Source: Treponema sp. (GTDB taxonomy: Bacteria > Spirochaetota > Spirochaetia > Treponematales > Treponemataceae). From it: DNA of 54,818 bases. This document shows positions 6,108 through 54,818 of the stretch, in pieces. Each line of letters opens with the position of its first letter. The stretch's first letter is position 1. Where the stretch lies: contig JAILHD010000034.1 in the NCBI GenBank assembly GCA_024696155.1, forward strand, positions 1 to 54,818. The letters run 5' to 3'. The notes below the pieces were generated by a model. That model made no database searches. It saw only the letters and a program-made list of their open reading frames with translations, and had not been told where the DNA came from. Made by a program: the position numbers and the translations under genes.

Positions 6108-6181
6108 ACGGCAAAGAGGTCGTAGATAATAGTCTTAGGGAAAATTTGTCCCTGGGGGTATTATCTACGACCTCTTTTTTT
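6108..6181 (+). ncRNA. Structured leader / sRNA candidate with intrinsic terminator (copy 2, upstream of gltB)
   Basis: Perfect AAAGAGGTCGTAGATAAT/ATTATCTACGACCTCTTT stem plus T-tract, ending ~14 nt before the gltB ATG. Confidence 0.65.
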
Positions 6182-12359: not shown

Positions 12360-12379
12360 AATAAATAAGAAAAATAGCG

Positions 12380-12524
12380 CAAGGGAACAGAGTATGCTTC
12401 AAAAACGTTCTGTTTGTGATGGTCGCAAAAGCGACCAGTTCAATAGTTTCTTTACCACAAACAGCATGTAGCGCGATATCGCGCGGTTTTGAAGCATACT
12501 CTGCGACCGGGAGCAATTTTTATT
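12380..12524 (+). ncRNA. Large structured 3'-UTR element, copy 1
   Basis: Nested helices CAGAGTATGCTTC/GAAGCATACTCTG, CTGTTTGTG/CACAAACAG, GGTCGC/GCGACC, GCGCGATATCGCGC; paralogous to 54591-54733 (minus). Confidence 0.6.
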
Positions 12525-16366: not shown

Positions 16367-19093
16367 ATGGCAGAAGAATCAGAAAAAAAGCCAGGATTTG
16401 TAGTGCATAAGAAGGCACAGACTCAGCCAGCAGCAGCCCAGACTCCATCCGCTCCAGAAAAGAAGCGTGTTGTAGTTGTAAGAAAGAATACTTCACAGGG
16501 GCCTGCTCAGGAAGCTTCTAAAAATGATGTTGCTAAGAAGAACCCGGTAAAGGTTGTTGTAAAGAAAGCTGAAGGTCAGGCACCTGCTCAGACAGAAAAG
16601 CCTGCAAAACCAGCTCCACAGGCAGCAGCTCCAGTTACAGAAGCTCCAAAATCTGCAAATACACAGCAGTCTCAGCGCCCACGCACTTTTGAACTTAATC
16701 AGGCTCGTCCTAATGTAAAAGCCGGAAACCTTTCTGACCATGGTCGTCAGAATAACCGCGGAGGATACAACCGCGGTGGTAACGGACAGGGCGGCTACAA
16801 TAATTATAACCGTGGTGGTCAGGGTGGCCAGGGCGGTTATAACCGTAATGGCGGAAACGGCGGTCAGGGCGGCTTTAACGGCGCTCAGGCACGTCAGAGC
16901 TATCAGAACCGTGAACGCGATAACCGCGAAGGTGGTCAGGGCGGCTATAATCGCGGCGGTCAGGGTGGATTCAACCGTAACGGTGGCCAGGGTGGCTTTA
17001 ATCGCGGTGGCCAGGGCGGCTTTAATCGCGGTGGCCAGGGCGGCTTTAACCGTGGTGGAGCTCAGGGAGGCCAGGGTGGATTCAGACCTCGTCCAATGGG
17101 CGGCGGTATGGCCCCAGCTCCTATTCCTGTTGACCAGCGTTCACAGGGTAAAAAGGCCGCTTACAAAGGTAAAAAACAGGTTTATAACCGCAAGGACGAA
17201 GAGCAGTACGATGATAACCTCTTTGAACAGAAGAAGAAGGTTGAAACTCCTGCAAGCGTAGTTCCAAAAGAAATTGAAATTATGGAAACAGTTTCGGTTT
17301 CTGACCTTGCACGCAAAATGAACCTTAAGGCAAGCGAAGTTATTGGAAAACTCATGGGCATGGGTGTAATGGTTACTATTACACAGTCAATTGACCATGA
17401 AACTGCAGAACTTCTTGCAAGCGAATACGGCTGCGAGGTAAAACTTGTAAGCCTTTATGATGAAACTGTAATTGAAAGCGAAAAGGATGACGGCGTAGAA
17501 CTTCTTCCTCGTCCTCCAATTGTTACCGTTATGGGACACGTTGACCACGGTAAGACTAAGACTTTGGATGCTATCCGCCATGCAAACGTTGCAGCTGGCG
17601 AAGCTGGTGGTATTACTCAGTCTATTGGTGCTTACTCAGTTACTACAGAAAAAGGAAAGATTACATTCCTTGATACACCAGGTCACGAAGCATTTACAAT
17701 GATGCGTGCCCGCGGTGCTCAGGTAACAGATATCGTAGTTCTTGTTGTTGCAGCAGATGATGGTGTAATGCCTCAGACTCTGGAAGCTATTGCTCATGCA
17801 AAAGATGCAAAGGTTCCTATTATTGTTGCTGTAAACAAGGTTGATAAGCCTGAAGCAAATCCGGACCGCGTAAAGACTCAGCTTTCTGAACTCGGTCTTA
17901 CTCCTGAAGAGTGGGGTGGAGATACACAGTACGTTCATATTTCTGCACTTAAAAAAGAAGGTATTGACGATCTTTTGGATGCAATCCTCTTACAGGCTGA
18001 AATGCTTGAGCTTAAGGCAAACTTTGAATGTCGTGCTGAAGGTAAGATTCTTGAATCCCGCGTAGATCAGGGACGTGGTGTTGTTTCTACTGTAATCGTA
18101 CAGCGCGGCTGCCTTAAGCAGGGTGACCCTTTTGTTGCCGGAATTTATTCTGGTCGTGTACGTGCTATGTTCGATGACCGCGGTAAACGTATTCAGGAAG
18201 CAGGTCCTTCTACTCCTGTTGAAGTTCTTGGTATGGAAGAAATGCCAAATGCAGGCGATCCATTCCAGGTAACAGAAAGCGAAAAGGATGCACGTGCTAT
18301 TTCTGCAAAACGTCAGGAACTTAAACGCTTTGAAGCTGCTAAGGCTGTTAAAAAGACAACTATCGATACTCTTTATAAAGATATTGAAAATGGCGAAGTT
18401 ACAGAACTTAAGGTTATCATTAAGGCTGATCTTCAGGGATCTGCAGAAGCACTTAAATCTTCTCTTGAGAAGCTTTCAACTCGTGAAATCCGCCTGAACG
18501 TTATTCATTCAAGTGCCGGTGCAATCAACGAATCAGATGTTACTCTGGCTGCTGCTGACTCTAATGCAATCATCATCGGATTTAATGTTCGTCCTACTCC
18601 AAAGGCAAAAAGCCTTGCAGAACAGGAACAGGTTGAAATCCGTAAGTACAATATCATCTACAAGTGTGTTGAAGAAATTCAGGCCGCTATGGAAGGTATG
18701 CTTCAGCCGGATACAAAAGAAGAAGTTATTGGTCAGGTGGAAGTTCGCAACACATTCCGTGTACCAAAGGTTGGCGTAATTGCCGGTTGTATGGTTTCGG
18801 AAGGTATTGTTCGCCGTACAGCAAGTGTTCATCTTGTTCGTGATGGAATTGTTAAGTTTACAGGTAAGATTACTTCCCTCAAACGCTTTAAGGACGACGT
18901 AAAAGAAGTCAGCACAGGCTATGAGTGTGGTATCGGTCTTGAAAACTGGCAGGATATCATGGTTGGCGATAAGCTCGAAATATTCGAAATTGTAGAAGTT
19001 GCTAAGAAACTTGGAAAGACTCTTGCCGAAGAACAGGCTGAACTTGAAAAGAAAGGCTCTTCAGACGCAGATAAAGAAGGAGAAAATTCATAA
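16367..19093 (+). CDS. infB: Translation initiation factor IF-2 with [12 protein letters not shown]-terminal region
   Basis: [31 protein letters not shown]-motifs. Confidence 0.97.
16740..17095 (+). repeat. In-frame repeat tract encoding [16 protein letters not shown]
   Basis: Near-identical 24-bp units (GGTGGCCAGGGCGGCTTTAATCGC) inside infB. Confidence 0.85.
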
Positions 19094-53601: not shown

Positions 53602-54588
53602 ATGAAACAAATTCTGGATTCTGATGTAGAAGCTTTAAAATCATTTATACAAAATCATGACTTTTTCTTTGTAATCGGGCATAAAGAGCCTGATGGAGAT
53701 TGTATGTCCAGCTGTCTTGGTGCTGCTGCAATTCTTGACGGTTTTAATAAACGATATCAGCTGCTTTCTGCAGGACCATTTAAAAGAAATGAAGTTCGCC
53801 GCTTTGAAGAGAAGTTTTCTGATATGATGGAATTTCTGGATGATAATGACAGAAAAAAGACGGGGCTTATAATTGTTGACTGTTCTGAATTGAGCCGTCT
53901 TGGAGAGATTGACGGGGATTTTGAAGGGCTTGATATTTTTGTAATTGATCACCATAAAACTTCGGGGCTTCCTGAAGGTGCGCAGGGCTTTATTGATTCT
54001 GATTCTCCTGCCTGTGCCTATATTGTTCAGAACTTTTATGAGCGTTTGATTGGCCCTGTGCCAGAAGAGCTTGCAAAAAATCTTTTCTTTGGACTTTGTA
54101 CGGATACGGGATTTTTCCGCTTTGTAAGTTCTAAGGGGGCTGATGTGTTTGATGGTGCTTCTCGGCTTGTAAAGGCTGGGGCGGATCCTAGAAAAACTTA
54201 TAATTTGATTAATTCTGGAAAGCCGTATTCAACCCGTAAGCTTTTGGGAACTCTTTTGATGAAGGCTGAGCGCTATCTTGAAGGTAAGCTTGTTATTACT
54301 ACTGAAAGTCTTGAAGATACTAAAAAATATGGTCTTGAAGGCCGTGATTCTGATGCGCTTTATCAGCTTTTTTTGGCAACAGAGGGCGTGCAGGCGGTGG
54401 TTTTCTTGCGTCAGGATACAGAAACAACCTGTACCGGCGGTTTCCGCTCGCTGGAAGAAATTGATGTTTCGCAGGTTGCGGCAAAATTTGGGGGCGGCGG
54501 ACACAAAAATGCCAGTGGTATGAGCTGTAATGGTAAGATTGAGACGCTTTTGCCACAAATTGTGAAAGAGTTCGCAAGAATTATGTAA
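53602..54588 (+). CDS. DHH/DHHA1 phosphoesterase (NrnA-like)
   Basis: IGHKEPDGDCMSS, VIDHHKT, C-terminal FGGGGHKNASG. Confidence 0.92.
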   Translation: MKQILDSDVEALKSFIQNHDFFFVIGHKEPDGDCMSSCLGAAAILDGFNKRYQLLSAGPFKRNEVRRFEEKFSDMMEFLDDNDRKKTGLIIVDCSELSRLGEIDGDFEGLDIFVIDHHKTSGLPEGAQGFIDSDSPACAYIVQNFYERLIGPVPEELAKNLFFGLCTDTGFFRFVSSKGADVFDGASRLVKAGADPRKTYNLINSGKPYSTRKLLGTLLMKAERYLEGKLVITTESLEDTKKYGLEGRDSDALYQLFLATEGVQAVVFLRQDTETTCTGGFRSLEEIDVSQVAAKFGGGGHKNASGMSCNGKIETLLPQIVKEFARIM

Positions 54589-54590
54589 AT

Positions 54591-54733
54591 AAAAATGACT
54601 CCCGGTCGCGTAGTGTGTGGCAAAACCGCGCGATAACGCGCTACACGCTGATTGTTGCAAAGAAACTATTTAATTGACCGCTCTCGCGGTCTAAACAATC
54701 AGAGTGTTTTTGCCCCACACTCCGCTCCCTAGC
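54591..54733 (-). ncRNA. Large structured 3'-UTR element, copy 2
   Basis: Minus-strand homolog of 12380-12524 with compensatory changes in stems CTGATTGTT/AACAATCAG and GACCGC/GCGGTC. Confidence 0.6.
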
Positions 54734-54743
54734 GTCTTTTTTT

Positions 54744-54818
54744 CTACCTTAATTCAGCGCCTTTTATGAATGTTTGAGCGTATTCAATAAGTTCTGCGAC
54801 CTCAGAGTCGGTGTAGGG
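54744..54818 (-). CDS. C-terminal end of a CDS running off the window
   Basis: Minus frame PYTDSEVAELIEYAQTFIKGAELR* open to the window edge. Confidence 0.5.
   Translation of the reverse strand, partial: PYTDSEVAELIEYAQTFIKGAELR

Follow-up and report, generated by a model that had tools for sequence, protein, structure and literature searches.

A 152-nt element on the minus strand (54591–54742), referred to here as copy 2, belongs to a dispersed, mobile-element-derived family, and we propose, with a probability of roughly 0.6, that the branched RNA carried by these MITEs has been retained as a bidirectional 3′-end or terminator element, a function that we infer from sequence comparison. The window, i.e. 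the whole stretch of Treponema sp. DNA that was analysed, comprises 54,818 nucleotides. Its relevant features are the following.

54591–54742, minus: whole element, copy 2 (match to covariance model R1, 163.1 bits, E 6.7e-37; z −8.1)
54737–54743, minus: 5′ A-tract, equivalent to a T-tract for transcripts of the convergent plus-strand gene (4 or more A in a row in 89/115 copies)
54712–54724, minus: 5′ arm of P1, CGGAGTGTGGGGC (fold and covariation alignment)
54609–54621, minus: 3′ arm of P1, GCCACACACTACG (two mismatches; P1 pairs covary, 120 copies)
54694–54707, minus: 5′ arm of P2, ACACTCTGATTGTT (helix 3: 99.2% of cells paired, double changes in 9/12 pairs)
54643–54656, minus: 3′ arm of P2, AACAATCAGCGTGT (covariation alignment)
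54676–54691, minus: P3 hairpin GACCGC-GAGA-GCGGTC with GNRA loop (helix 4: double changes in 6/6 pairs)
54661–54669, minus: conserved, mostly unpaired ATAGTTTCT (near invariant in 33 own-genome copies)
54628–54641, minus: P4 hairpin GCGCG-TTAT-CGCGC, completing the three-way junction as its third arm (covariation alignment)
54726–54733, minus: conserved internal loop, 5′ side, GCTAGGGA, opposite GACCGGGA (own-genome copy alignment; G-A mismatches in the sequence)
54600–54607, minus: conserved internal loop, 3′ side, GACCGGGA (own-genome copy alignment)
54591–54595, minus: 3′ T-tract (4 or more T in a row in 92/115 copies)
54744–54818, minus: last 25 codons, stop included, of a radical-SAM activase-like gene that continues beyond the window (by eye, against a longer C6A8 homologue)
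53602–54588, plus: DHH/DHHA1-domain protein, convergent neighbour (Pfam PF01368, PF02272)
12370–12521, plus: copy 1 of the same family, after gltD (R1 match 164.4 bits)

Copy 2 spans all 152 positions of R1. Its minimum free energy is −68.2 kcal/mol, compared with −39.4 (s.d. 3.6) for 200 dinucleotide shuffles (z −8.1), none of which folds as well (0/200); the large structured element described in the initial annotation is thereby borne out. Sequence and coordinates were also correct; compared with the R1 match, the span 54591–54733 given there falls short by the 5′ A-tract and outermost G-A-C alone. P1 had been reported to pair with two mismatches, and exactly two are found when CGGAGTGTGGGGC (54724–54712) is set against GCCACACACTACG (54621–54609). 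The G-A mismatches of the internal loop can be read directly from the sequence. A short, weak stem (GAC/GTC) and an internal loop form the base of the element, whose hairpin is long and branched. A T-tract is conserved in 92/115 family copies, but a simple terminator scan makes no call at copy 2. Terminal inverted repeats (TIRs) were absent from copy 2 in a search of its genome (G000) allowing up to one mismatch, and no target-site duplication is visible.

The in-frame stop codon TAG of a minus-strand gene occupies 54746–54744, and copy 2 begins right after it. This gene runs off the window and was compared by eye with the longer homologue of Treponema sp. C6A8: the peptide ends in ...QTFIKGAELR*, the C6A8 homologue in ...RTFVEGAELR, and the gene appears to be radical-SAM activase-like. 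At its other end, copy 2 is separated by 2 bp from the stop codon of the DHH-family gene (53602–54588, plus strand), a neighbour that did not form part of the initial observation. Copy 2 is therefore flanked by the stop codons of two convergent genes, and “just 3′” applies to either gene equally well. The statement that it lies directly 3′ of a same-strand gene is literally true, but it is misleading, since the flanking genes converge and the orientation of the element at this site is reversed in C6A8. The convergent site, the inverted C6A8 allele and relatives that lack the element do not support the idea that it is tied to a place 3′ of a same-strand gene. In the spacer after the DHH gene, the element is on the minus strand in G000 and, as another allele, on the plus strand in C6A8. 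G151 contains an unrelated palindrome (L348) together with the element on the minus strand, its P4 altered; G024 and G004 have other palindromes instead, and G161, G003 and G015 have neither element nor palindrome. On the sequences compared, the spacer is thus a turnover spot among the closest relatives, which argues against a conserved pairing of the element with the minus-strand gene. The palindromes in this spacer (L051/L349 and L052/L350 in G024 and G004, L348 in G151) read AGCCACAGAT...ATCTGTGGCT and GCGATGGTTGTAATC...ACCATCGC, so several unrelated palindrome families seem to turn over there.

The two copies considered at first are part of a much larger set: the own genome contains 40 places by DNA search and 42 by R1, and the R1 counts in relatives are 60 for C6A8, 22 for G004 and 16 for G024. 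The element is present in 49/145 family genomes and 3/20 genera, and many genomes of the same genus do without it. All core-pattern matches listed in genome contigs come from Treponema, Spirochaetaceae, Spirochaetales or Spirochaetia records, many of them from ruminants. A phage origin was rejected because the core pattern had no match in viral contigs, and a known RNA family because Rfam 15 gave no match above the gathering threshold. Our literature search found no report of this repeat in Treponema. Two other repeats were seen in the window, a near-perfect 32-nt inverted repeat with a 1-nt spacer at 6113–6177 (AAAGAGGTCGTAGATAATA...TATTATCTACGACCTCTTT) and an array of 24–27 bp repeats at 16814–17082 (GGTGGCCAGGGCGGCTTTAAT...) within a 908-aa ORF (16367–19093).

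The covariation claimed initially from two copies is real on 120 copies. An alignment of more members, named at the time as a way to see whether the helices fail to form, shows them pairing in 120 copies as a three-way junction (P1, P2 carrying P3, and P4). In this alignment, which was fitted to the model, 95.9% of the pair cells are paired and 40/48 pairs have changed on both sides; in a sequence-only alignment (A1), double changes are already found in 32/48 pairs. The covariation score is 0.482, compared with 0.174 for shuffles and at most 0.086 with the partners slid. G.U cells outnumber A.C cells by 178 to 59 overall (3:1) and by 101 to 20 in P1 (5:1), whereas the outermost helix has no G.U excess (20 versus 25). 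Counted per base pair the figures are 26 to 10 (p 0.011), and because the copies are related, cell-based p values are too small. The sense strand folds with −70 kcal/mol versus −60 for the antisense strand and is the better one in 117/119 copies. Since G.U exceeds A.C on one strand, selection acts on the sense-strand RNA; DNA-level palindromy alone predicts neither this asymmetry nor the sense-fold advantage. Comparison of the copies shows the core to be a sense-strand three-way-junction RNA kept by compensatory changes and G.U wobbles. In addition, the unpaired segments CAAAAACA, ATAGTTTCT, TGTA and GGTTTTG are invariant or nearly so, bases around the junction are conserved, and GNRA loops are present in the family. 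That these loop and junction bases are fixed suggests an additional role for a protein or a tertiary fold.

The origin of the family becomes apparent from relatives with intact ends. G010 harbours about 190 near-identical copies in which the core lies between inverted repeats CAGGGC(TTC/AAA)CGCATTATAA, and TIRs at both ends were found in G010, G060 and T. bryantii NK4A124. Of 57 intact copies, 20 are flanked by target duplications that measure exactly 10 bp (9/10 or more positions matching), versus 0.4 by shuffling, and other lengths occur 0 or 1 times. A 1.2-kb element with the same TIRs in G243 (C13:83075–84275) contains an ORF that matches PF13808 (DDE_Tnp_1_assoc, E 6e-25), its transposase reading frame being interrupted. 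The pair PF13808 and DDE_Tnp_1 is typical of ISAs1-family transposases. DDE_Tnp_1 (PF01609) has two matches in G059 and none in G000, G004, G010, G024, G060 and C6A8. By comparison, the family is thus shown to be a MITE, putatively of ISAs1 type, of rumen/gut Treponema.

Copies of the own genome yield no TIR match at up to one mismatch; most have kept the core without TIRs, with A4 before and T4 after. Decayed TIRs are discernible on both sides of one own-genome copy (L010) and its G004 orthologue, and some C6A8 copies retain TIR remnants. It is this handful of decayed copies, together with the common core, that would link the TIR-bearing to the TIR-less subfamily. No clean empty site with a duplication was found for TIR-less copies among the orthologous loci compared. 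Conversely, the deletion derivatives L238, L250 and L254 have kept the TIRs and lost the branched core, and L254 has a perfect 10-bp duplication, ATTAATTACG, on each side. A REP/RAYT system was rejected because G000 (86% complete) has no match to the Y1 transposase (PF01797). Insertion into terminator loops as a general preference was also rejected, as flank palindromy is 3.25 versus 3.26 for shuffled sequences in 57 intact MITEs. In one case (L345 in G171), what looks like a terminator hairpin with A and T runs, GGGGCGGCTTA...TAAGCCGCCCC, is interrupted by an intact MITE with core. Many contigs of the G010 draft (C86, C57, C83, C69, C51 and others) start or stop within the MITE, so this draft assembly is broken up by the repeat.

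At least five own-genome copies (L004, L011, L016, L019 and L041) share their allele with an orthologue, with a core identity of 0.95–0.99, and the flanking DNA is mostly 75–95% identical; examples are L004/L268, L011/L297, L019 with L321 and L331, and copy 1 with G151. Elsewhere a different family allele occupies the same position (L026/L274, L005/L270, L283/L311). About 10 orthologous sites hold a different allele, which implies that not every allele is locus-specific. L333 (G004) and L310:13536 (C6A8) form an apparent chimera, the 3′ P1 arm and flank being identical and the 5′ half replaced, with a breakpoint near P4. Recombination between copies thus probably occurs; it does not explain the G.U asymmetry. 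At a site where G024 and G004 carry the element, C6A8 has a long A-tract/T-tract palindrome, AAAAAAAAGCCATGCGGGTCCCAGC...CACATGGCTTTTTTT (L309, orthologous to L287/L337; also L156), possibly a second family of similar architecture.

TIR-less copies are found preferentially at gene ends. Of 101 such copies with close genes on both sides, 40 are convergent and 14 divergent, compared with 19 convergent, 68 tandem and 23 divergent background spacers and with 4 convergent and 15 divergent sites for 34 intact MITEs (p 0.003 and 0.0005 versus TIR-less copies), all of these counts being approximate, given the simple ORF rule behind the gene calls and the presence of orthologous copies in the set. Intact MITEs are located anywhere between genes. 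In tandem pairs, the TIR-less copies of four genomes are sense in 34 cases versus 13 antisense (p 0.003), a bias that stems mainly from C6A8 (20:6), the own genome alone giving 7:6. At convergent sites, the median distance from the element to each stop is about 16 nt. A-runs of at least 4 border 89/115 copies versus 18/115 control windows, and T-runs of at least 4 border 92/115 copies versus 16/114. Where the element is missing, the orthologous site often has a terminator hairpin of the ordinary type, as it does downstream of gltD in C6A8 and G024 and at the L267 site.

According to the reading that we prefer, copy 2 is an old member of this MITE family. A copy would insert as a MITE and later lose its transposon ends, and copies at gene 3′ ends would be retained for the ability of their transcript to end messages. 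Flanked by an A-tract upstream and a T-tract downstream, the long branched hairpin may serve as a terminator or 3′-end block in both directions; at copy 2 it would separate the convergent DHH and radical-SAM activase genes. The convergent enrichment, the stop spacing, the A4/T4 tracts and the terminators at element-free orthologous sites favour a terminator. Against it stand the silent scan at copy 2, the short basal stem, the long branched hairpin and the conserved loop and junction bases, which a terminator does not need. Further points against the preferred reading are the lack of a sense bias in the own genome and the orthologous sites with a different allele. Tentatively, one may go further: the transposon could carry an RNA domain whose core has a specific tertiary fold or binds a protein, and each genome could have domesticated this domain dozens of times, as a bidirectional 3′-end element that is regulated or depends on a protein. 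This would be a new class of structured RNA, spread by transposition and then selected at gene ends.

It is unlikely that the elements are purely selfish MITEs whose structure serves transposition only, as a DNA hairpin or by transposase binding, and whose old copies are harmless remnants at gene ends. The clear TIR and duplication biology in relatives, the intact copies anywhere between genes and the palindromic DNA typical of MITEs all agree with this explanation. However, judging from the derivatives L254, L250 and L238, the core does not seem to be needed in cis, unless its loss followed insertion, a one-strand G.U excess is not expected under DNA-level selection, and shared TIR-less alleles are more similar than their flanks. 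We consider it quite doubtful that the MITE disperses a trans-acting or protein-binding RNA (a source of sRNA, an RNA-protein particle, a ligand-binding or catalytic RNA), for which the 3′-end location would be incidental or give transcription from upstream genes. The invariant unpaired bases, the GNRA loops, the three-way junction and the sense bias at tandem sites would fit, but there is no fixed partner gene, dozens of divergent copies are present per genome, Rfam holds no relation and many genomes of the same genus lack the element. Highly improbable is a mutation bias, i.e. quasi-palindrome template switching or gene conversion keeping the arms complementary without selection: allele replacement (L026/L274, L283/L311) and the L333/L310 chimera suggest recombination between copies, but such a bias predicts no strand asymmetry, which is observed in P1 and not in the outer helix, and leaves the fixed unpaired bases and the identity above the flanks unexplained.

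Bacterial MITEs have mostly been treated as palindromic junk with occasional RNA effects, and the present family displays RNA-strand-specific compensatory evolution over more than 100 copies in four genomes, some copies having remained 95–99% identical between species beside DNA that has mostly diverged to 75–95%. C6A8, a sequenced strain with 60 copies, offers a clean system to ask whether mobile elements supply terminators and what the fixed unpaired bases bind. Among known systems, ERIC/IRU is a 127-bp enterobacterial intergenic MITE, palindromic and co-transcribed with its neighbours, with an orientation-dependent effect on mRNA stability (PMC2229807). It resembles the Treponema family as a small palindromic MITE but differs in sequence, host phylum, size and fold, the Treponema family having a covarying three-way junction and an ISAs1-type relative. 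The 168-bp palindromic YPAL/RU-2 element of Yersinia, which may influence the stability of upstream transcripts (PMC2229807), is similar in size and in its abundant intergenic copies, yet has duplications of 3 to 26 bp and internal inverted repeats where the Treponema family has exactly 10 bp and, in relatives, clear TIRs. The Correia/NEMIS elements of Neisseria are MITEs of about 107/155 bp, and RNase III is proposed to act on their RNA stem-loops (PMC2229807); they are unrelated, the 155-bp form has an IHF site, and PMC2229807 describes no three-way junction for them. The MRSC-65-2 motif (2024) is a mobile/repeat candidate with dozens of copies per genome, strong covariation and a conserved UYCCGG (PMC11109978). 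The Treponema sense strand has CCGGRA, the complement of UYCCGG, but MRSC-65-2 is a single long stem from diverse phyla, whereas the Treponema family is branched and restricted to Treponema and close genera. In intrinsic terminators of Bacillus cereus, stems evolve by compensatory changes, most often through a G.U intermediate, and bidirectional terminators are predicted (PMC5381666); these are ordinary terminators of individual genes, unlike the dispersed, transposon-derived Treponema family. MITEs with structured, transcribed RNA, such as ERIC, YPAL and NEMIS, are thus an already known kind (PMC2229807), and what appears to be new, being absent from Rfam and the papers searched, is this family with its branched fold and strand-specific covariation.
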